The translations under genes were made by a program, and so were the position numbers. From Acidobacteriota bacterium (GTDB taxonomy: Bacteria > Acidobacteriota > Aminicenantia > Aminicenantales > Saccharicenantaceae): 64,000 nt of DNA. Below the pieces are notes generated by a model. That model made no database searches and was not told where the DNA came from. It saw nothing but the letters and a program-made list of their open reading frames with translations. The stretch spans positions 156,293-220,292 of the forward strand of contig JBDKSB010000012.1 in NCBI GenBank assembly GCA_039683095.1, in the 5' to 3' direction. This document shows positions 3,898 through 63,999 of the stretch, in pieces. Position 1 is the first letter of the stretch, and every line of letters starts with the position of its first letter.

Positions 3898-4056
3898 GTT
3901 GTCCTCCCCGGCTGCCTCCCGGCCTTCTTCCGAACGGCTCGGCCGGCAGACGGCCCGCCAATCATAGCACATTCGCCGCCGGGCGACAGGCCCGGACGAG
4001 CGTTTTTTGCCTCCAAAACCGGGTGCCGTGCCCTGAAGGCTTTCCCCGGATTTTCA

Positions 4057-4096
4057 GCTTGTTGATTTATTATCAGAACGATGCCTTAGCCAAGGC
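4057..4096 (-). repeat. Solo right end of the 205-bp inverted-repeat element
   Basis: The 40 bases match the last 40 bases of the full copy at 56853-57056 at 32 of 40 positions without gaps. They finish in the same GCCAAGGC end. The outer 14 bases (4083-4096) are a near-perfect palindrome, GCCTTAGCCAAGGC. The rest of the element (another 160 or so bases toward speE) is not recognisable here. The end lies 3 bp beyond the SpoIID gene stop codon, the same placement seen for the other copies at gene 3' ends. Confidence 0.6.
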
Positions 4097-4099
4097 AAT

Positions 4100-6307
4100 T
4101 CAGTAGATCTTATCGATCTTGACGCCGCTGTAATACTTCTTGAGGATGTCCTTGTATTTGCCGCCGGCCACGGCCATGCCGTAGGCCCCGACCTGGCACA
4201 GCCCGACGCCGTGTCCCCAGCCCCGCCCGGAGAAGGTGAACTGGTCGACGCGCCCCTGCTCGTCGTAGGTCCGGTCGATGACGAACAGGGTGTCCCGCAG
4301 GCCCAGGGCGGCCCGGATCTGGAAGCCGCGCACCTCGGCGGCCGAGCTCTCCCCCGTCAGGGTCAGGTCGACCACCCGGCCCGACTCGCCGCGGTGTTTG
4401 ATCTCGATGTCGGCCAGGGGGCCGATGGCATAGGACTGGTTGAGCAGCCTGTCGAGCTCCAGCCGCGATTTCCGGACCTGCCAGCGGTTGAAGCGCGAGG
4501 ACCGGTCGAGGACGTTCGAATTCGGCGGGTAGAACACCTCGAGGTAGGCGATCTGGCCCTCCCGCTCGAGCCAGCGGATGTTCTCGCCGCCGAGCAGGAC
4601 GAGCTTGGTGGCGAAGCTCGTCTCGCCCTCGACCGTCCGCAGCAGGCGGACGTGATTGGACAGGGAGAGGGTGCGGCGGTCGAAATCCTGGCCGACCTCG
4701 ATCGTCCCCTTGCCCGCGGCGCGGAACGTCCCGGTCTTGAAGAAGTCCTTCTGATCCTTGACGATGCGGGCCAGGGCCAGGGCCAGCTCGGCCCGGCTGA
4801 CCGGCCGCCGCGGGTCGCCCGTCCGGACCGAGGCCGGGAAGAGCCCGGACTGGAAACAGTACGCGAGAGGCCGGCGGTCCGGGCCCTGGACCTCGGGCAG
4901 GTCCCTGAGCAGGAAGTCCACTTCCCCGTCGAGGAGCAGCTCCCCGGTCCGGTCCTGCCAGCCGAAGGCCTCGACCAGGAGCCGGGCCAGGCTGACGAAA
5001 TCGAGGGCCGCGGAATCGGGCACGAACCCCTGGTCCCGGATCCCGACCAGCCGCCGCGCGTCGCGGACCCAGTCGACGGCCTCGTCGAAGGTCGCCTCCT
5101 TGCGGAAGTCCAGGGGCTCGGCGCCCATCGGGACGATGCCCAGCCCGACGAGCAGGGCGACGTCGAGGCTGGCGTCCCGGCCGTCGATGACGATCGGGGC
5201 GACGTGGGTGCGGGCCTCGATCTGCCACTCCTTCTGCTTCTCCGAGGCGCACTCGACGCTCTTGAGATACGGCACGGGCCGGCCGAAGAAAACCTTATCG
5301 GCGTCCTCGGTCCGGCCGCCGCAGGTGCTGGTGTAGAGGGCGTTGATCAGCTCGCCCCGGTAGAGCACGACCTCGCCCTTGGTCTCCTCGACCGCCCGCG
5401 TGCTCAGAGGGTTCTCGGAGGCCATGCCCGTGTAGAGCTGGGAGCGCGGCGTGTCGACGAGGTCGTAGCCGAAATGATCGAACTGGCCGATGTTCTTGAG
5501 CGCGTAGGTCCGGGCGGCCACGGCCTGGGCCTTGAGGGCCTCGATGGCGTTGAACTGGCCGGGCGAGAGCTCGCCGGGGACGACGCTCTTCAGGTAGTCC
5601 TCGAGGTTGACGTAATTGACGATCACCAGCCCGCGCGGGGTGCCCTTCATCACCAGGAAGCCGCGGTAACCCCTGCCGTTGAGCATCAGGAAGCTCTGCG
5701 GGTTGGCCGGGATGAAGTAGAGCTCGGAGTCGCGGTCGAGCGATTTGAGCTCGCTCGCGACCAGCATCCAGATCGGCCGCGACGGCTCCTCGACGATCTC
5801 CTCGCGCTCGATCCAGACGTCCTTGAATCCGGCCGCGTTGAGCTCGGCGACCTTGGCCAGGGCGTCGCCGCGGGTCAGGAACTCGCCGAGCTTGACCTCG
5901 AAGACGCCGGCGGCGTCGGCCTCGATGTCCTGGGCCACGGTGACCTCGGCCCCGATCCTGGACCGGGCGCTGGCGGCCAGCTGGTCGGCCTCCTCGCGTT
6001 CTTTGGCGTGGGCCAGCAGGATGACGTATTTCTCGGTCAGCTTCTCGCCGGCGCCCTTGATCTCGGCCTCGTCGGCGTCGTCGTGGATGACCCGGTAGCC
6101 GGTGTTGACCTCGTAGATCTTCATGCCCGAGGAGGACCGGATGCGGATGTCCTTGAGATTGGTGCCCAGCCCGACCCTGATGACCGGCTTGGGGATCATG
6201 AAGCCGTGGAAGAAGGCCCCCTCGGTGCCGAATTCGACAGGGATCCCCCCGAAGAAAAAGAACCCGACGAACAGAATAAAGACGTACTTAAATCTATCGA
6301 ACTTCAT
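4100..6307 (-). CDS. SpoIID/LytB-domain protein with SPOR-like and SLH-like segments
   Basis: This 735-residue exported protein has an N-terminal hydrophobic segment (YVFILFVGFFFFGGI, residues 8-22). A region at about 90-175 resembles a SPOR-type peptidoglycan-binding repeat. The SpoIID core begins near residue 235 with NYVNLEDYLKSVVPGEL, EALKAQAVAARTYAL and YTSTCGGRTEDADKVF, and resumes at the C-terminus with GRGWGHGVGLCQVGAYGMA (about 695-713). SpoIID proteins are lytic transglycosylases that act on denuded glycan strands. Between the two core parts, at about residues 430-520, lies an insertion with an SLH-like pattern (GLFPASVRTGDPRRPVSRAE). The gene ends just before a repeat-element end at 4096. 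A role in peptidoglycan remodelling in a diderm is inferred. Confidence 0.88.
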   Translation of the reverse strand: MKFDRFKYVFILFVGFFFFGGIPVEFGTEGAFFHGFMIPKPVIRVGLGTNLKDIRIRSSSGMKIYEVNTGYRVIHDDADEAEIKGAGEKLTEKYVILLAHAKEREEADQLAASARSRIGAEVTVAQDIEADAAGVFEVKLGEFLTRGDALAKVAELNAAGFKDVWIEREEIVEEPSRPIWMLVASELKSLDRDSELYFIPANPQSFLMLNGRGYRGFLVMKGTPRGLVIVNYVNLEDYLKSVVPGELSPGQFNAIEALKAQAVAARTYALKNIGQFDHFGYDLVDTPRSQLYTGMASENPLSTRAVEETKGEVVLYRGELINALYTSTCGGRTEDADKVFFGRPVPYLKSVECASEKQKEWQIEARTHVAPIVIDGRDASLDVALLVGLGIVPMGAEPLDFRKEATFDEAVDWVRDARRLVGIRDQGFVPDSAALDFVSLARLLVEAFGWQDRTGELLLDGEVDFLLRDLPEVQGPDRRPLAYCFQSGLFPASVRTGDPRRPVSRAELALALARIVKDQKDFFKTGTFRAAGKGTIEVGQDFDRRTLSLSNHVRLLRTVEGETSFATKLVLLGGENIRWLEREGQIAYLEVFYPPNSNVLDRSSRFNRWQVRKSRLELDRLLNQSYAIGPLADIEIKHRGESGRVVDLTLTGESSAAEVRGFQIRAALGLRDTLFVIDRTYDEQGRVDQFTFSGRGWGHGVGLCQVGAYGMAVAGGKYKDILKKYYSGVKIDKIY

Positions 6308-56852: not shown

Positions 56853-57056
56853 GCCTTGGCTAACGTATATATCTGATATAAAAATATTTAAGTCAATCAC
56901 GGGGTCCAAAAGGGCTCTTTCAGGCGATTTTTTCCAGGGAAAAGCTCATAACCCGGATCGCCGATATTGGCGGCAAAAAGGGCGAGGCATCAGTTTGGCG
57001 GAAACCAGATATCTTCGCTAATTGATTTAATATGAGATGGTTGCGTTAGCCAAGGC
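56853..57056 (-). repeat. 205-bp inverted-repeat element, copy A
   Basis: The 204-bp element begins GCCTTGGCTAACG (56853-56865) and ends CGTTAGCCAAGGC (57044-57056), a perfect 13-bp inverted repeat. Degenerate pairing continues inward for a further 25 or so bases. A 20-nt core, ATTGGCGGCAAAAAGGGCGA, lies at 56966-56985, 113 nt from the left end and 71 nt from the right; copy B has it at 114 and 71. The outer parts are AT-rich. No open reading frame is inside it. The right end forms the last codons and stop of the LamG-like gene. Confidence 0.85.
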
Positions 57057-57746
57057 AGGCGTGAACAGCATCAGGTCGTCGAAGGCGCCGGTGTCGTCGA
57101 ACGAGCCGACGCCGACGAGGCCGTGGGTCAGGGTCCGGTCTCGGGCGGTCAGGATGGGAGCCGTCATATCGTCGAGATAGGCCCGGATCTCCCCGGTCCG
57201 CGCGTCGCAAACCACCTTGAAGGCGTGCCAGGCCAGGTCGGTCAGCCGGAAGACCGACTTCCCCGCCGGTTCGAGGTTGATCTTGATCCGGTCGGCGCCG
57301 TTGACCAGGCCGATGATGTTGTGGACGGCGTCGCTCGTCCCGGCGAAATGGACATAATAGAAATGGGCCAGATCCTGGTAGTGAAAGATGACGTCCATGT
57401 CGCGGACGGCGACGGCGGGGTCTGTCGAGCAGCGCAGCCGGCCGCTGAACTCGAAGGACCCGGCGTCGTGTCCCGAGAGCACGGAAACCGAGGTCGGCGC
57501 CCGGATCAGACCCGGGCTTCCCGGGGCGGTCAGCTCGTAGACCTTTGAGCCTTTTTCGTCCGCGACGCGCCAATGCGAGGGGTCGTTCGGGGCCCAGCCG
57601 TCGGCGCGGCCGTCCTCGAAGTCGCTCGAGGCTACGGGCCGCGGCCCCGTTCCGGCCGCGCGGCAGCCGGCCGCGACGACCGCGACGGCCGCGAGCAGCG
57701 CCAGGGCCGCCGCGGCCTCCAGGACCGGGACCGCCCGGCCGTTCAA
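57027..57746 (-). CDS. LamG/DUF1080-like lipoprotein, 3' end inside the repeat
   Basis: The product is 239 residues with a lipobox AAGC (Cys about 28). The mature part has a concanavalin-like jelly-roll pattern of the DUF1080 / laminin-G class: SFEFSGRLRCSTDPAVAVRD, FYYVHFAGTSDAVHNIIGLV and VVCDARTGEIRAYLDDM. These domains bind glycans and occur in sugar-degrading outer-surface proteins. The last ten codons (PALANATISY) and the TAA are read from the right end of repeat copy A, so the original C-terminus may have been replaced. The start overlaps the AKR stop by 4 bp. Confidence 0.75.
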   Translation of the reverse strand: MNGRAVPVLEAAAALALLAAVAVVAAGCRAAGTGPRPVASSDFEDGRADGWAPNDPSHWRVADEKGSKVYELTAPGSPGLIRAPTSVSVLSGHDAGSFEFSGRLRCSTDPAVAVRDMDVIFHYQDLAHFYYVHFAGTSDAVHNIIGLVNGADRIKINLEPAGKSVFRLTDLAWHAFKVVCDARTGEIRAYLDDMTAPILTARDRTLTHGLVGVGSFDDTGAFDDLMLFTPALANATISY

Positions 57747-58789
57747 CAGGCCTCCCCGTCTCGGTAGCCCGGCTTCATCCAGGGCAGGGCCGCGCCGGCG
57801 AAGAACGGCTCGAGCTTGACCGTCAGGCGGCTCATCTCCTCGGGCGACAGGGGCTGGAAGTCGCGCAGAAGCGCGGCGTTCTTGCGGACGACGTCAACGC
57901 TGTCCGTGCCGATGACCGCCGCGTGCACGTGCGGCAGGGTCAGCGCGTAGCGGATGAGGTCCGTGGCGGCCAGCCCCGGGACCGTTTCGCGGGGCCGGAC
58001 GGACTTTATGATCATGATGCCCATCTTCCGGGCGGCCGCGGCCGGGATGGCCCCGCTCTCGAAGTCGCCGTGCCGCTCCTCGTAGTGATTGAGGGCGATG
58101 AGCATGGTGTCGAAGTCGTGGCGGCGGGCCGCCTCGGCCATGGCCGCGGCGTCGACGTGGCCGCTGAAGCCGATGAACCGGGCGATCTTCTGGTCCCTGA
58201 TCTTGCACAGGGCGTCGAGGGCGCCGCCGGCGAGGCCGAGCGTGTCCAGGTCGGCCATGGATTCGATCAGGTGGACCTGGTAGAGGTCGATGTGGTCGGT
58301 CCGCAGGCGCTTCAGGCTCGTCTCGAGCTGGCGCATGACGCCGTCGTAGGAGCGCTCCTCGAACTTGGTGGCCAGGAAGACCTCTTTGCGGCGGCGCTCC
58401 AGGACCCGGCCGATCCGCTCCTCGCTGACGATCGCCTTGTTCGTGTAGTCGCCGGCCGTGTCCCAGTAATAGAAGCCGTGGTCGAGCGCCGCCTCGAGGA
58501 TCCCGGCGGCCTTGTCCTCGTCGAGGACGGCGCAGAAGCGGCTGCCGAGCCCGATGCCGATGCGCGGCACGAGGGCCCCGCTCTTGCCGAGCGCCACGGT
58601 CGGCAGGCCTTTCGGATCGAAGCCGGCGGCAGCAGGACCGGCTCCGGAGCGGGTCGTCCCTCGGGGGTCAGGAACGGGAGTATCACCGGACGGAACCGCC
58701 CCTATCAATGTCGTGGCCGCCGTCCCGGCCGCCGCCGCGGCGGCCATCTTCTTGAGGAATTCCCGCCGGCGGACCTGCTCTGGGCTCAT
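57743..58789 (-). CDS. Aldo/keto reductase with twin-arginine signal
   Basis: This 348-residue protein has a Tat-like leader (QVRRREFLKKMAAAAAAGTA) and an AKR barrel. The catalytic residues appear as Asp and Tyr in YYWDTAGDYTN, Lys in VFLATKFEERSYDG and His in LYQVHLIESM. NADP binding is suggested by the late VIGTDSVDVVRKN loop. A Tat-exported AKR is uncommon but known among acidobacterial-type genomes. It is 4 bp overlapped with the LamG-like gene, likely one transcript. GAGGAGA precedes the ATG, and repeat copy B ends 23 bp upstream of it. Confidence 0.85.
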   Translation of the reverse strand: MSPEQVRRREFLKKMAAAAAAGTAATTLIGAVPSGDTPVPDPRGTTRSGAGPAAAGFDPKGLPTVALGKSGALVPRIGIGLGSRFCAVLDEDKAAGILEAALDHGFYYWDTAGDYTNKAIVSEERIGRVLERRRKEVFLATKFEERSYDGVMRQLETSLKRLRTDHIDLYQVHLIESMADLDTLGLAGGALDALCKIRDQKIARFIGFSGHVDAAAMAEAARRHDFDTMLIALNHYEERHGDFESGAIPAAAARKMGIMIIKSVRPRETVPGLAATDLIRYALTLPHVHAAVIGTDSVDVVRKNAALLRDFQPLSPEEMSRLTVKLEPFFAGAALPWMKPGYRDGEAC

Positions 58790-58812
58790 GAGATTCTCCT
58801 CGTTGTCGTTGC

Positions 58813-59017
58813 GCCTTGGCTAACGCAATTGAATGATAACAAACAAATTGATAGAATAAAAGGGATTAAAAAGGGCTATAATCGGCGGTTTTCGCGGGGG
58901 AAAAGCGCAAAGCTAAGATCGCAGAAATTGGCGGCAAAAAGGGCGATGCTTCAGTTTGCCGGGAACACGAAATCAGATCCATTGCTTTTAGTATGATGGG
59001 TTTGCGTTAGCCAAGGC
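58813..59017 (-). repeat. 205-bp inverted-repeat element, copy B
   Basis: The 205-bp element begins GCCTTGGCTAACGCAA (58813-58828) and ends TTGCGTTAGCCAAGGC (59002-59017), a perfect 16-bp inverted repeat. The 20-nt core ATTGGCGGCAAAAAGGGCGA is at 58927-58946. Other blocks shared with copy A include AAAAGGGCT and GGGAAAAGC. No target-site duplication is obvious on either side. It sits between the tRNA-Lys 3' end (8 nt away) and the AKR gene. Confidence 0.88.
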
Positions 59018-59025
59018 ATGAAAAA

Positions 59026-59098
59026 TGACCCGCGTAGGACTCGAACCTACAACCCGCAGATTAAGAGTCTGCTGCTCTACCAATTGAGCTAGCGGGCC
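59026..59098 (-). tRNA. tRNA-Lys (anticodon CUU)
   Basis: The 73-nt cloverleaf reads GGCCCGC for the 5' acceptor strand and GCGGGTC for the 3' strand, with one G-U pair. The D-loop has TAGCTCAATTGGTAGAGC, and the anticodon stem-loop GCAGA-CTCTTAA-TCTGC gives CTT. The T-loop block is GTAGGTTCGAGTCCTAC. CCA is not encoded. A perfect sigma-70 promoter lies upstream. The lysS gene that charges it is at 25 kb. Confidence 0.96.
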
Positions 59099-59220
59099 AT
59101 GTATCTGTTCGGCTATCAGATTTTCTATCTGTAGCTTACGCTAATCGCCTCAGGTACCATTGTCCAAATCTTGACCAGAGGCTCTCTCCTCCGCGCCCAC
59201 CGGGCCGGAGGATTGGAGGC

Positions 59221-59284: not shown

Positions 59285-60523
59285 CTATCCGTTGAAGGCA
59301 GCCGAGATCGATCCGACCCGGAGATAAGCCACCATATCCAACGTTGTCATGACCATGATCATCAGCAGGAGGTTCGACGTCGGCAGGTTCGCCGTCTTCG
59401 AGACGACCTTCGTCCCGTTGATGTAGAAGTCGACCTGGCCGCTCGAGACGGCGACGATCCGAAGGGTGAACCAGGAGGCCGCCGCGGCGATCCCGGTGTC
59501 GGATGCCGAGAGCGTCGTTCCATCCTTGACCAGGGCATAGATGTTCGACCCTACGGCCGAGGAATGACGGAACATGGCCAAGTGCCGGCTCGCGGGATCC
59601 TCGGTATCGGTCGTGAACGCGGCGTCGGTGAGGCCGATCCACGTCCGGACGTTAGTCAGCGTCTCGAACTGAATCCGGCAGGTGATGTCGAAGAGCTGCG
59701 CCGGGGTCACGAGGAGCGAGGAGTTCTGGGAAAGAAGCTGCTCGGTGTTGCCGGCCGTGGTGTTCGTGACCAAGCGGGCATAATGCGGGATGGTCGAGGA
59801 GAAGGTCATAGAGCCCGTTCCCGACGCCAGGAGATCAATGAGCGTCTGGAGCAGGGCCGAACCCGTGGCCCGGGCCGCCGCCCACCTCCTATCGGCCATG
59901 ACCGGGAGGACCTCCATCAGCTGAACGAGCCGCCCTTCCTGGCCGTTGTCGTTGAGTGCGTAGAGGCGGTTGTCGGACTTGAAATAGACCTTCCCCTTGC
60001 CGCTCGCGGGGGTCGCCGGCGTCGCGATCTCTGGGAGCGTCAAGGCCCCGGTGAGCTCCTGGCCGGCCAGGACGAGGTTCGTCCGGTCGGACTCGAGGCT
60101 CAGGAAGTGCGTCCTGGCGGATGTCGCCCAGGTCCCCACGCCGCTCTCGATGATCCAGGCCGTCGCGCTGACGAGCCTCATGGTGACATAGGCGAAGGTC
60201 TCCCCCGCCACGTTGTTGACGAGAGTGCCGCCGGCCGCCCCGCCGTTGATCGTGTCGGAGTCGGCGGCGTCGATCGTGACGTTGCCGGCGCCGAGCTTTA
60301 CGATCCGGAACCAGCCGCCGATCTGCGGGGTATCGACAGACGGCAGGTAGACGGTTCGGGCCGACGCCGAGTTGATGATGACGGTCCGGCCGAAGTCCGC
60401 CGTCGTGAGCGTCGTGTCGGCCGCCGAGCCATCGAGATAGTCGCCCTGGGAGACGTACTTGACCAGGTTAAGGAAATCGGATCGCTTGGTCGCGTTGCCG
60501 ATCGTGACATCGGGTTTCGCCAT
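59285..60523 (-). CDS. Phage tail fibre-like structural protein
   Basis: The 412-residue protein is beta-rich with repeated Thr/Ala/Ser-laden strands (DFGRTVIINSASARTVYLPS, NVTIDAADSDTINGGAAGG). Its C-terminal segment (RIVAVSSGQVDFYINGTKVV) resembles a LamG-like tail tip. I recognise no enzyme. Composition is less GC-rich than the surrounding chromosome. It is the last gene in a run of four tail genes, the first of which is truncated by the window edge, and starts 9 bp after the 820-residue protein's stop. Confidence 0.6.
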   Translation of the reverse strand: MAKPDVTIGNATKRSDFLNLVKYVSQGDYLDGSAADTTLTTADFGRTVIINSASARTVYLPSVDTPQIGGWFRIVKLGAGNVTIDAADSDTINGGAAGGTLVNNVAGETFAYVTMRLVSATAWIIESGVGTWATSARTHFLSLESDRTNLVLAGQELTGALTLPEIATPATPASGKGKVYFKSDNRLYALNDNGQEGRLVQLMEVLPVMADRRWAAARATGSALLQTLIDLLASGTGSMTFSSTIPHYARLVTNTTAGNTEQLLSQNSSLLVTPAQLFDITCRIQFETLTNVRTWIGLTDAAFTTDTEDPASRHLAMFRHSSAVGSNIYALVKDGTTLSASDTGIAAAASWFTLRIVAVSSGQVDFYINGTKVVSKTANLPTSNLLLMIMVMTTLDMVAYLRVGSISAAFNG

Positions 60524-60532
60524 GATATTCTC

Positions 60533-62995
60533 CTACCACCACACGCTTCGATTCGCGGTCGTCCAGTCGCCGGCGACGACCAGGCCGTCGTCATCGCACC
60601 AGAAGCCCTGGGATCCCTTCTCCGCGTCCGTCGCGGAGGCCCAGGCCGCCGCCGTGTCAGAGCACCAAATCCCAACCTGTGCCGCCCCGCCCTTGAAGTT
60701 GTCGACGACGATCGCACAGCGGGCCGCCCCGAGCTCCTTCGAGATCGATATAATCTGGAAGAACTGGTCGACGATTGAGCCCGCAGCGCCGGGTGCGATG
60801 GCCTTGCTGATCTTGAGGATGTCCGAGGGCTTCCGGTCGAATAGCTTGAGCCCGTTCACTGTCAGGCCCAGCTCGACCATCGGGATATTCGTAAGATACA
60901 AGATGCGCTGCTTGAGGTAGGTCGCCGAGGCCTCGTCAGTCAGCCACGTATAGAGCCGCTTATAGGCGGTTTCCTCGCCATCTACATAGCGGGCCCGGGA
61001 ATTCGTGCCCTCGACGACCTCGAAGGCATCGTCATCCCCTACGGTATCAAGGCCCTGCTGGTCGGCCGTCGCCGGCGTGGGATTGAAGTAGACCTGGACG
61101 CCGGCGAAAAGCTTCTCGGCCGGCGCCCTCTGCTCGAACTCCGCGATCTCCTGCGTCTCGATCACGGCATCCTCGGTGTAGAGCGGAGAGAACGCGTCAA
61201 ACGAGATCCGCCCGTCGAGCTCCTGATAGACGATGCCGAGGACCGACCGCTCGATCTCGTTGATGTAGATCGAGAGGTTCTTCCTGTTCCGGATGTACTT
61301 GCCGAGGACGTACTCTCCAAGCGAGGCCTTGGCCGCCGCGAAGGCCGTTGTGTTGATCTGCGTCGCGGCGAGGCCCAGGACCTCGAGGAGAAGGAACCGG
61401 ATGATATCCGAGGCATTGGTCATGAGGTCGGTCGATGTCTCGCCAGTAATATCGGAGAGAACCGCACCCTGGGCCGTGCAGGAGATCTCGCCCGTCGGCG
61501 TATAGGATACGAATGTGAACTTGCAGTTAGCCAGGTCCACGATGTAGCTCGACGGACTCACCAGGATCCCGGCGTCGTAGACGGCCTCCACGGCCTTGAG
61601 CGTCTGATAGTCTGCATCGGCGATCGTCCACTCGGTGCCGTCGGCCGGCGCCGTGTTCGTGCAAAGCGGCCGGATCCCCGTCACGCGGCCGAAGAGAAGC
61701 GGCAGCGGCTTCCCCCGCGCGTTCTCAGAGACCCCGTCCCCGAAGCAGGGATTGACCGGGACCTGGCGTGACAGGAGCTCGAGCCAGTTGACGGTGTCGA
61801 ACCGGACCGCGGATGCGGCCCATTTCTCGTCCTTGACATAGCCGGAGTAGATCGTGGCGTACTCCGTGAGCGGCAGATCCTCTCCACCGTGGAGGATCTC
61901 GACGGCTGCGTTCTTCCACGACCAGGTCGTCCAGATGTAATCGAAGAACCTCTTTGAGTTCAGGATCTCGAGCGCGAGGTCTCCGCAGGCAAGCCCCCCG
62001 CCGGTGAGGAAGTCCGATTCCTCCGATTCGATGGCTCCGAGCGCGGAGGCGTTCAGGAGCGGCTCGTAGTAGATGTTGTCGAAGATCTTCCCCTTGGCAT
62101 TCTTCCCAAGGCCCGAGGCGAAGTGAAGCCTGAAGAAGGCCACAATGTAGACCGACTCCCGGTCGGCCGCGAGGTCGTCTGTACAGCGGACGTAGAGCTT
62201 CTTGGACGTCGCGTCGTAATAGTAACTGCCGGCCGCCCCGTCGACGGCCGCGCTCGAGGTCTTGAGGGTGAGCGCCGTCCCGTTGTGCTCGACGGCCGTG
62301 AGCGCCCGGTAGGTCGCCCCATAGGAGCCCATCAAGGGCAGATCATTCCAGTCGATTTCGTAGGTGTAGACGAGGCCCGAGGTCTTCGTCCAGCCCCGCA
62401 GCTGCTCTTTCGGGGTAATCCGGAGGAGGAGGTCGCGCTGGCACGCCGGCGAGGCGACCAGGTCCTCATACGTCGCCGGGCCGAGTTCCTCCAGGTAGAC
62501 GTCATCGACATAGAACGACGAGGAGGCGGCTGCCCTATTGAAGGCGCCCCAGAGCATGTTGAGATTGTCGGGAGCGGCCGGCGTCTTGAAGATGAAGGAG
62601 TGCCGGGCCCAGGCCCCGGCGCTATCCAGGCCGCCCGAGTAGTCGTAGTCATAGGAGCCGCCGTTTGGCTGCCAGGTCCCATCGTCCTGCAGGTACTTGT
62701 TGTACCCGCCGATCATGATCCTCGCGAAGCCGGCGACGGTCTTGCCGGCGGCCGTCCGATACCACATCGTAGCCCGGTACCAGGTCGAGGGCTTCACGAC
62801 CCGGGTCTGATAGAACTCGGCCCACCCATTCGACGCGTCGACGTCGCCGCGAATGCAATATACCCCGGAATGGACAACGGTCGCCTCGCGGTTAAGGGAC
62901 GACGCGCCGGTAAGAAGCTTGGTCCAGTTGGTAGGATTCGTCGCCGACGACCAGACTTCGAAGCCGCCGTCGACAAGAAGGTTCGGCCCGGGCAT
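60533..62995 (-). CDS. Phage tail/baseplate protein with N-terminal carbohydrate-binding-like domain
   Basis: The 820-residue product begins with a jelly-roll domain (LLVDGGFEVWSSATNPTNW, RATMWYRTAAGKTVAGFARI, SSSFYVDDVYLEELGP) like carbohydrate-binding module CBM4/9 at residues 1-165. The middle (about 330-700) has tail-hub or baseplate-like strands: LYSRQVP-type turns, VSPSSYIVDLANCKFTFVSY and ISFDAFSPLYTEDAVIETQE. The exact structural role cannot be told. The start codon directly follows the stop of the upstream gene. A host-glycan-binding role for the N-terminus is inferred. Confidence 0.6.
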   Translation of the reverse strand: MPGPNLLVDGGFEVWSSATNPTNWTKLLTGASSLNREATVVHSGVYCIRGDVDASNGWAEFYQTRVVKPSTWYRATMWYRTAAGKTVAGFARIMIGGYNKYLQDDGTWQPNGGSYDYDYSGGLDSAGAWARHSFIFKTPAAPDNLNMLWGAFNRAAASSSFYVDDVYLEELGPATYEDLVASPACQRDLLLRITPKEQLRGWTKTSGLVYTYEIDWNDLPLMGSYGATYRALTAVEHNGTALTLKTSSAAVDGAAGSYYYDATSKKLYVRCTDDLAADRESVYIVAFFRLHFASGLGKNAKGKIFDNIYYEPLLNASALGAIESEESDFLTGGGLACGDLALEILNSKRFFDYIWTTWSWKNAAVEILHGGEDLPLTEYATIYSGYVKDEKWAASAVRFDTVNWLELLSRQVPVNPCFGDGVSENARGKPLPLLFGRVTGIRPLCTNTAPADGTEWTIADADYQTLKAVEAVYDAGILVSPSSYIVDLANCKFTFVSYTPTGEISCTAQGAVLSDITGETSTDLMTNASDIIRFLLLEVLGLAATQINTTAFAAAKASLGEYVLGKYIRNRKNLSIYINEIERSVLGIVYQELDGRISFDAFSPLYTEDAVIETQEIAEFEQRAPAEKLFAGVQVYFNPTPATADQQGLDTVGDDDAFEVVEGTNSRARYVDGEETAYKRLYTWLTDEASATYLKQRILYLTNIPMVELGLTVNGLKLFDRKPSDILKISKAIAPGAAGSIVDQFFQIISISKELGAARCAIVVDNFKGGAAQVGIWCSDTAAAWASATDAEKGSQGFWCDDDGLVVAGDWTTANRSVWW

Positions 62996-63745
62996 CTACA
63001 GGACCTCCCTCATGGTGAGGGCCGCACTCCGCCGCTTCATGTAGATATAGCCATACTCGGGGAGCTCCTCGAGCCGGACATACGCGGTGAGGTCGTGCGC
63101 GCCATCCGTCTCGATCTCGTTGCCGTAGTCTGCGATAACCCAGAAGAATTCCTTGAGGCCCACGGCCTTGACCAAATTCTCGATCTCGTCTGGGAGTACG
63201 TTCGACCAACCGAACGTGTAGATGTGATAGGAGGACTTATCCTCGAAGGCTTCGGCGCCGTCTGTCGATTCCGAGATGACGGTCGGGTCGACGAGGCGTC
63301 GGGTGTGGGAGGAGAAGTTCCGTTCCGGAGACGGGGCGGTGCCGATGTAGACCCGGCCGATTGAGACATAGCCGTCCGGGTTCGCGGGGTCAGCAAACGT
63401 GAACCTCCACCAGCGGTAGGACTGGTTCGCGGCCCAGAGATAGAGGATATCCCTGGCGTTCCAGGTCATCGTGACATCTACGCTCGGCGCCGTCCAGACG
63501 TCGGTCGCATTGGCCTGGACATGGACCGTCGCGCCCGACGTCAGGTTGTGGCCGGTGATGATGACAGCCAGGATCGCCTTGGCCGAGCCCAGGTCGAACT
63601 TCAGCCACTCCGACGTGCAGCCAGTCGCGCGCCAGGGCTTTGAGCGCCAGGCACTCTGGACGTTCGCGGCCGGCAGGGTCGCGACCGCCGAGGAGGCCGA
63701 AACAATGCCGGCATCCGAATGGTTGGTGTAGCAGAAGCGGATCAT
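62996..63745 (-). CDS. Phage tail protein with discoidin (F5/8 C)-like fold
   Basis: The 249-residue protein has the pattern of a discoidin/F5-8 type C jelly-roll in its first 150 residues (KPWRATGCTSEWLKFDLGSA, ILAVIITGHNLTSGATVHVQ, YRWWRFTFADPANPDGYVSI). The rest is a beta-rich tail-like domain (YHIYTFGWSNVLPDEIENLV). The annotation as tail protein rests on context between the tape-measure end and the larger tail protein. It overlaps the tape-measure stop by 4 bp. Confidence 0.6.
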   Translation of the reverse strand: MIRFCYTNHSDAGIVSASSAVATLPAANVQSAWRSKPWRATGCTSEWLKFDLGSAKAILAVIITGHNLTSGATVHVQANATDVWTAPSVDVTMTWNARDILYLWAANQSYRWWRFTFADPANPDGYVSIGRVYIGTAPSPERNFSSHTRRLVDPTVISESTDGAEAFEDKSSYHIYTFGWSNVLPDEIENLVKAVGLKEFFWVIADYGNEIETDGAHDLTAYVRLEELPEYGYIYMKRRSAALTMREVL

Positions 63746-63999
63746 GCCTCACTCCTCACGAGCGTCCGGACGTTCATCCCGCCGCGGCCGCGGCTCGAGA
63801 GCTTGTTGATGCTCGGGAGCAGGGCCCGGCCGACCTGCTTGCCGTCCATATAAAGGTTGATGATGGCCGGGAGGGTTGCCGCCTCCGCGCTCCTGGCCGC
63901 CACGCCTTCCCTAGCCGCGGCCGGCGCCGTCAGCTGGGCCATCTGTACGATCTGAATAAGCTTCTTCTCCGGCAGCACATACTCGGTCCCGTGGCCGAT
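63742..63999 (-). CDS. Phage tape-measure protein, C-terminal part
   Basis: The frame is open through the window edge, so only the last 85 residues are seen. They read GHGTEYVLPEKKLIQIVQ near the start and LYMDGKQVGRALLPSINKLS at the end. Tape-measure proteins commonly finish with a GxxGPEYVLPE-type block followed by a small beta domain, which fits. The GTG at 63976 is in frame but is not the true start. Confidence 0.6.
   Translation of the reverse strand: MGHGTEYVLPEKKLIQIVQMAQLTAPAAAREGVAARSAEAATLPAIINLYMDGKQVGRALLPSINKLSSRGRGGMNVRTLVRSEA

Follow-up and report, generated by a model that had tools for sequence, protein, structure and literature searches.

The closest described relatives of the elements reported here are the TIRtrons, which encode TIR-associated tyrosine transposases (TIRYTs; Di Nocera et al. 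2013, PMC3733652) and whose transposases fall, according to Quentin et al. 2018 (PMC6006769), mostly in TnpA-Y1 subclass 2.1, to which a C-terminal HTH-like extension belongs. An acidobacterial TIRYT group is described in PMC3733652, where many of the terminal inverted repeats (TIRs) carry GGGGWSAS, a motif that is common but not universal. Two other kinds of repeat are relevant for comparison: the REPINs, which are spread by RAYTs (Bertels and Rainey 2011, PMC3116915), and the bacterial MITEs (ERIC, NEMIS, RUP and others) listed in PMC3733652.

The window, by which we mean the whole stretch of 64,000 nucleotides that was analysed, corresponds to C12:156293-220292 of G000, the 3.29-Mb genome of a Candidatus Aminicenantes relative. 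It contains three members of one repeat family, listed below with their parts and with an adjoining gene; R1 denotes a sequence-only profile of the repeating unit.

56853-57056: element copy 1, 204 bp, a doublet of two head-to-head units with a 13-bp perfect TIR
56853-56952, plus strand: left unit of copy 1, 16-mer GCCTTGGCTAACGTAT and A/T-run arm; R1 match at C12:213145-213244, E 4.7e-12
56950-57056, minus strand: right unit of copy 1, 16-mer GCCTTGGCTAACGCAA and arm; R1 match at C12:213242-213348, E 4.2e-16
56966-56985: 20-nt core ATTGGCGGCAAAAAGGGCGA of copy 1, within the T-run zone of its right unit
57027-57746, minus strand: chromosomal gene that takes its C-terminal residues and stop codon from copy 1, reading ..ALANATISY* into the element
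58813-59017: element copy 2, 205 bp, a doublet of two head-to-head units with a 16-bp perfect TIR
58813-58913, plus strand: left unit of copy 2, an R1 profile match
58911-59017, minus strand: right unit of copy 2, an R1 profile match
58927-58946: 20-nt core ATTGGCGGCAAAAAGGGCGA of copy 2, within the T-run zone of its right unit
3989-4096 (C12:160281-160388), minus strand: third window member, a single unit with 16-mer GCCTTGGCTAAGGCAT; R1 E 7.2e-14

A preliminary description of this DNA had reported the two copies of 204 and 205 bp, their perfect TIRs of 13 and 16 bp continuing imperfectly inward, and a 20-nt core set 71 nt in from the right end of each, and all of this is exactly as described. 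It had also taken the 205-bp palindrome as the element and counted two copies in the window. Both copies are real, but the repeating unit is a one-sided half of about 105 bp that occurs also singly and in direct tandem, and the third member lies outside the span reported, its outer end 4 nt beyond the stop codon of a predicted gene. The halves of copy 2 match the R1 profile at E 7.9e-13 and 1.2e-13. The nearest relative of copy 1 in G000 is copy 2, and the right units of the two are mutual best matches, with 71% identity beyond the 16-mer. The 20-nt core is present only in these two copies and absent from all others examined; because they are each other's closest relatives, it is a trace of shared ancestry between sister copies and no feature of the family. 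Self-BLAST detected no similarity among the flanking DNA on the three sides, which rules out a segmental duplication as the origin of the pair, an outcome that the preliminary description had named as fatal to its reading. One end of copy 2 stands 8 bp from a tRNA-Lys(CTT) gene (59025-59099), and from 186 bp past this gene a run of phage-like genes whose function is unknown (phrog_8917, phrog_8610, phrog_11633) occupies 59285-63978 on the minus strand, perhaps a prophage, or a module of phage origin, sited at the tRNA gene.

Each unit opens with a nearly invariant 16-mer, GCCTTGGCTAACGCAA, followed by an arm of A/T runs at fixed positions (22-31, 36-38, 45-46, 78-82 and 89-93), between which no base preference is seen. 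Forty-three units could be aligned over about 105 bp almost without gaps, with sharp conservation of positions 1-16 and of the A/T-run positions; mean pairwise identity is 94% in positions 1-16 as against 28-52% thereafter. Among these 43 units there are 13 doublets of 204-260 bp, about 17 other, single units and two direct tandems. Further copies, for which the preliminary description had proposed a genome-wide search, are abundant in G000: the exact 13-mer of the TIR occurs 33 times, the 16-mer GCCTTGGCTAACGCAA has 37 matches with at most one mismatch (none for a reversed-pattern control), and R1 finds 45 strong units, taken as those with E<1e-5. Apart from two isolated one-mismatch hits, the family was not found in the other 78 genomes searched, 12 of them from the same genus. 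Many ends are partnerless, the single units having no second 16-mer. The unit at L037:5112 suggests that such singles are possibly doublets with one decayed half; stand-alone units are themselves no more decayed, with 0.35 mismatches in the 16-mer compared with 0.73 in doublets.

A search for empty sites at orthologous loci, also proposed in the preliminary description, found the site of copy 1 empty in five genomes of the same genus (G002, G007, G012, G009 and G010), with the neighbouring genes present and the gene at 57027-57746 contiguous in congeners that have no element. The gap at this site is 32 bp in G002 and 256 bp in G000, and it is likewise far shorter in G002 at most of the other copies examined (on C4, C11, C1 and C12). 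Because sites are empty in same-genus genomes at copy 1 and at most of the other positions examined, we regard the copies as insertions. Neither the flanks of paired copies nor the empty sites displayed show a target-site duplication; the preliminary description had noticed none, and this is consistent with a HuH/Y1 tyrosine transposase. The family favours gene 3' ends: when genes are predicted by a simple caller based on codon usage, 23 of the 43 outer ends are no more than 40 nt away from a 3' end, and two are that close to a 5' end. The element end often supplies the stop codon of the gene, as TAA at positions 9-11 or as stops near 25-30 and 36-39. At four-fold degenerate sites of one gene, G000 and the element-free G002 are 79% identical, whereas the best sister copies reach only 71%, so that divergence beyond the 16-mer is odd for insertions younger than the split of these two genomes; the excess could come from error-prone copying, from rapid drift or from loss in G002. 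A pair of ends 1.97 kb apart at C12:916211-918178 was considered as an autonomous insertion sequence and rejected, its interior consisting of ordinary genes, including one for orotate phosphoribosyltransferase, that G002 and G009 carry there without the G000 family.

The copies are also unevenly placed, 21 of 30 sites having a neighbour within 5 kb where 2.5 would be expected. Beyond the 16-mer, same-strand units 0.3-10 kb apart share 48% identity, compared with 40% both for opposite-strand neighbours and for the distant background, and this same-strand excess was reached in none of 5000 permutations. Since sister copies lie within about 4 kb of each other on the same strand, spread has been local, a pattern that we infer to be compatible with a single-strand mechanism acting near the donor.

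At one place in G000, C9:52775-53814, an inverted pair of units (L033:12776 on the plus strand and L033:13815 on the minus strand) encloses a single gene (L033:12930-13700) for a protein of 256 aa. This protein matches Y1_Tnp PF01797 above the gathering score (E 4.7e-7) and the NCBIfam model REP_Tyr_transpos for REP-associated tyrosine transposases at 58.8 bits, under that model's cut-off of 80; the gene is the sole close match to a REP-type tyrosine transposase in G000 (E<=1e-8). The HuH (NHIH), W and Y (YIDLN) motifs show no variation or almost none across 10 homologs, which also share a conserved C-terminal region at about residues 145-246, where Pfam gives no HTH match even at E 10. The nearest named relative of the transposase is from Candidatus Aminicenantes bacterium RBG_19FT_COMBO_65_30. 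Homologs in other genera are likewise flanked by inverted ends, some of them related in sequence (GTGCCTTGGCTG, TGCCTTGGCTGATG, AGCTTGGCTGAC) and others of the GGGGAC (GGGGACRG) or GGGTCGG type, and ends of this kind are what Di Nocera et al. 2013 (PMC3733652) reported for TIRYTs. In G013, a TIRYT homolog with a TAG inside its reading frame is bordered on either side by a different and shorter palindromic repeat of roughly 110 bp, CTCTGGCTGCTGG...CCAGCAGCCAGAG (L098, 1350-1460, 2230-2330 and 3580-3690).

The arm can be followed beyond G000. As an independent test, twenty-two ends from other genomes were aligned in register by their terminal repeats, one of them clipped by the end of its locus and out of register, and at the A/T positions learned from G000 they carry A or T in 92% of cases, as against 50% at the remaining scored positions. 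The register has a sharp optimum at offset 0 with weaker side lobes near +/-11. Relatives that differ in the first 13 bases are still matched by R1 on either flank; the GGGACGGGCC ends of L104, for example, are matched in the same register at both ends, and the A/T-run register recurs in homologous elements of other genera of the order, including those with GGGGAC-type ends. Outside the order the arm is patchy: among four elements from another family of the phylum whose ends are detectable or are candidates, it is present in L219 and was not seen in L220, L222 and L223. The best period of the A/T runs is 10.8 bp, and because this gives p=0.052 against block-permuted profiles, helical phasing is a hint only, the fixed register being the solid part. 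As a hypothesis, the arm would be bound, or wrapped, in double-stranded form.

Another genome of the genus, G009, carries an end family of its own, GGGGTCAGACCCCAGC, in about 29 copies (L192:3404-3648, L193, L194 and L202-L212) that cluster at C4:88-144 kb and near 1.08, 1.15 and 1.25 Mb. It keeps the same A/T register (86% over 30 units), and none of the Y1 genes found in G009 is located at a copy of this family. In three G009 regions, chosen only for orthology to G000 element sites, six G000 sites could be compared. At four of the six (L034:4226, L035:3659, L035:9585 and L038:7179) the gene end that bears an element in G000 bears one of the G009 family in G009, and at a fifth (L038:5212) a G009 element lies in the corresponding intergenic region; orientation agrees where it can be judged. 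The chance of overlap per site is below about 1%, as estimated from about 20 G009 sites in 2.8 Mb. Alignable sites are empty in G002, which is closer to G000 than G009 is. Orthologous descent of the elements at shared sites was rejected, unit identity between the two genomes being not above background. The simplest reading is that insertion has recurred at these gene ends, and in-place replacement of an older element is an alternative. Two G009-family units 1.4 kb apart enclose a reading frame for an IS630-type transposase (L203:2419-3834), and a GATGGTCGCTTCGA(G/T)GACTCCG..CCTGCCG stretch, probably another dispersed repeat family, occurs at unrelated places in two genomes (L075:36-170 in G002, upstream of an aldo/keto reductase gene and adjoining a palindrome, and L039 near 5270-5350, at C12:624 kb of G000).

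We consider it very likely that the window elements are mobile but non-autonomous, that two inverted copies of a transposon end of about 105 bp make up each of them, and that they belong to a 45-unit family whose presumed mover is the REP-type (HuH/Y1) tyrosine transposase at G000:C9:52775-53814, a TIRtron encoding a TIRYT. As caveats to this assignment, the genome has one copy of the transposase, and its match to the NCBIfam REP model is under the model's own cut-off. The transposase would recognise the 16-mer together with the arm and its A/T runs at fixed positions, and would cut and join single-stranded DNA, leaving no target-site duplication. Reinsertion would take place mostly within a few kilobases and on the same strand, and copies may survive at gene ends, where the AT-rich end would provide a stop codon in every frame. 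A broader model can be offered tentatively, as one that we would sooner doubt than assert: the TIRYT-type transposases of this order may recognise a double-stranded end of about 100 bp with A/T runs at a fixed, roughly helical spacing (a wrapped or bent transpososome end) and not the short single-stranded hairpin of REP and IS200 elements, so that the terminal word switches between species (GCCTTGGCTAACG, GGGGTCAGACCCC, GGGGACGGGCC) while the arm register stays, and families that differ in their word settle again at the same gene 3' ends and move in short same-strand hops.

RNAalifold on the 43 units gave two pairs, neither covarying, and single units fold no better than shuffles (mean z -0.02) and form no hairpin; good single-strand folding is seen for whole doublets (z -5.6 and -3.8). 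Recognition of a REP-type hairpin is therefore unlikely, and a structured RNA element, which the preliminary description had entertained for the 20-nt core, is not supported, given the same lack of covariation and shuffle-like folding. This weighs on the suggestion that the elements are REPINs in the strict sense, that is, doublets of REP sequences (GTAG-tagged single-stranded DNA hairpins) spread by a RAYT. Much would agree with it: the doublets are inverted and bear the conserved 16-mer on either side, the same units flank a Y1 transposase of REP type, the sites are intergenic and adjoin gene ends, and whole doublets fold well. We nevertheless judge it unlikely, because besides the missing hairpin and covarying pairs the conserved 16-mer has no GTAG or GTGG tag (the other strand of the end is GTTAGCCAAGGC), stand-alone 16-mers are not more decayed, contrary to the REP singlets in PMC3116915, and copies are clustered where the REP doublets of PMC3116915 are randomly placed.

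It is more improbable still that the units are chromosomal functional sites, such as RNA elements, terminators or binding sites of a nucleoid protein, and not mobile DNA. Such sites might be expected to look in part as these do, with strictly conserved ends around a diverged interior, A/T runs at fixed positions and a location of the outer ends beside gene 3' ends; the occupation of the same gene ends by a different end family in a congener could be read likewise. The family is, however, present in one of 79 relatives' genomes, the 12 of the same genus included, its sites are empty in congeners, and a transposase gene lies between an inverted pair of its units; covariation is lacking, no terminator-like site was found within the window elements, and the sole Rfam match over the window is a tRNA. 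Least credible of all, to the point of being negligible, are attC recombination sites of an integron with its gene cassettes. The consensus of attC is GTTRRRY, and the end GTTAGCC/GGCTAAC bears what we take to be a similarity to attC core boxes; the elements also occur in clusters, often with one gene between two of them. GTTAGCC nonetheless deviates from that consensus, the gene between the ends on C9 is for a Y1 transposase and no tyrosine recombinase, and the genes between elements are ordinary chromosomal ones. Their order is conserved in congeners around the empty sites, which already refutes this reading.

REP-type tyrosine transposases are widespread, and if the elements are TIRtron ends, as we prefer, they bear on how the transposases with TIRs in place of REP hairpins recognise DNA. 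An arm register that stays the same over three end words yields a model of the binding site that is concrete and can be tested, and with its empty sites, sister copies within about 4 kb and paired families in congeners the genus provides a system for following both spread and changes of end specificity. For annotation, it should be noted that element ends can make artificial C-termini on genes, as in the gene at 57027-57746.

Comparison with known systems places the family as follows. The preliminary description had seen the profile of a MITE and knew of no named family. The elements are indeed short, non-coding, dispersed, TIR-bearing and inserted relative to congeners, and the size and intergenic placement are those of bacterial MITEs; a MITE of unknown kind is not the best reading, however, as target-site duplication is not seen, the related transposase is of the Y1 tyrosine type and copies range from half to double units. 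While the sequence is without a name, the kind has one in PMC3733652, that of TIRtron/TIRYT. With REPINs, which spread in trans, the family shares inverted doublets, a highly conserved 16-mer per end, a variable spacer and a REP-type tyrosine transposase, but its unit is about 105 bp compared with 20-40 bp in REPs, and it has tens of copies where REPINs have hundreds. It resembles the TIRtrons of PMC3733652 and PMC6006769 in a Y1/HuH transposase gene flanked by TIRs unrelated to GTAG REPs, in repeats dispersed also as singles, dimers and groups (reported for some TIRtrons), and in a YIDLN motif that fits the Y---N of class 2 in PMC6006769. It departs from them in that GGGGWSAS is missing from the G000 ends (GCCTTGGCTAACG), and in the new end sequence GCCTTGGCTAACGCAA; relatives of the same protein do have GGGGACRG or GGGTCGG ends, and several of them share GGGGWSAS. 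The fixed-register A/T arm of about 100 bp after the terminal repeat, kept between families with different ends, and the local same-strand spread are further differences, unmentioned in the accessible text of the two papers. As far as that text extends, the cross-genus A/T-run register, the local same-strand spread and the different end family of a congener at the same gene ends are apparently unreported. The closest filing for these elements is thus the TIRtron/TIRYT family, REPIN-like in its working and outside the definition of REP.
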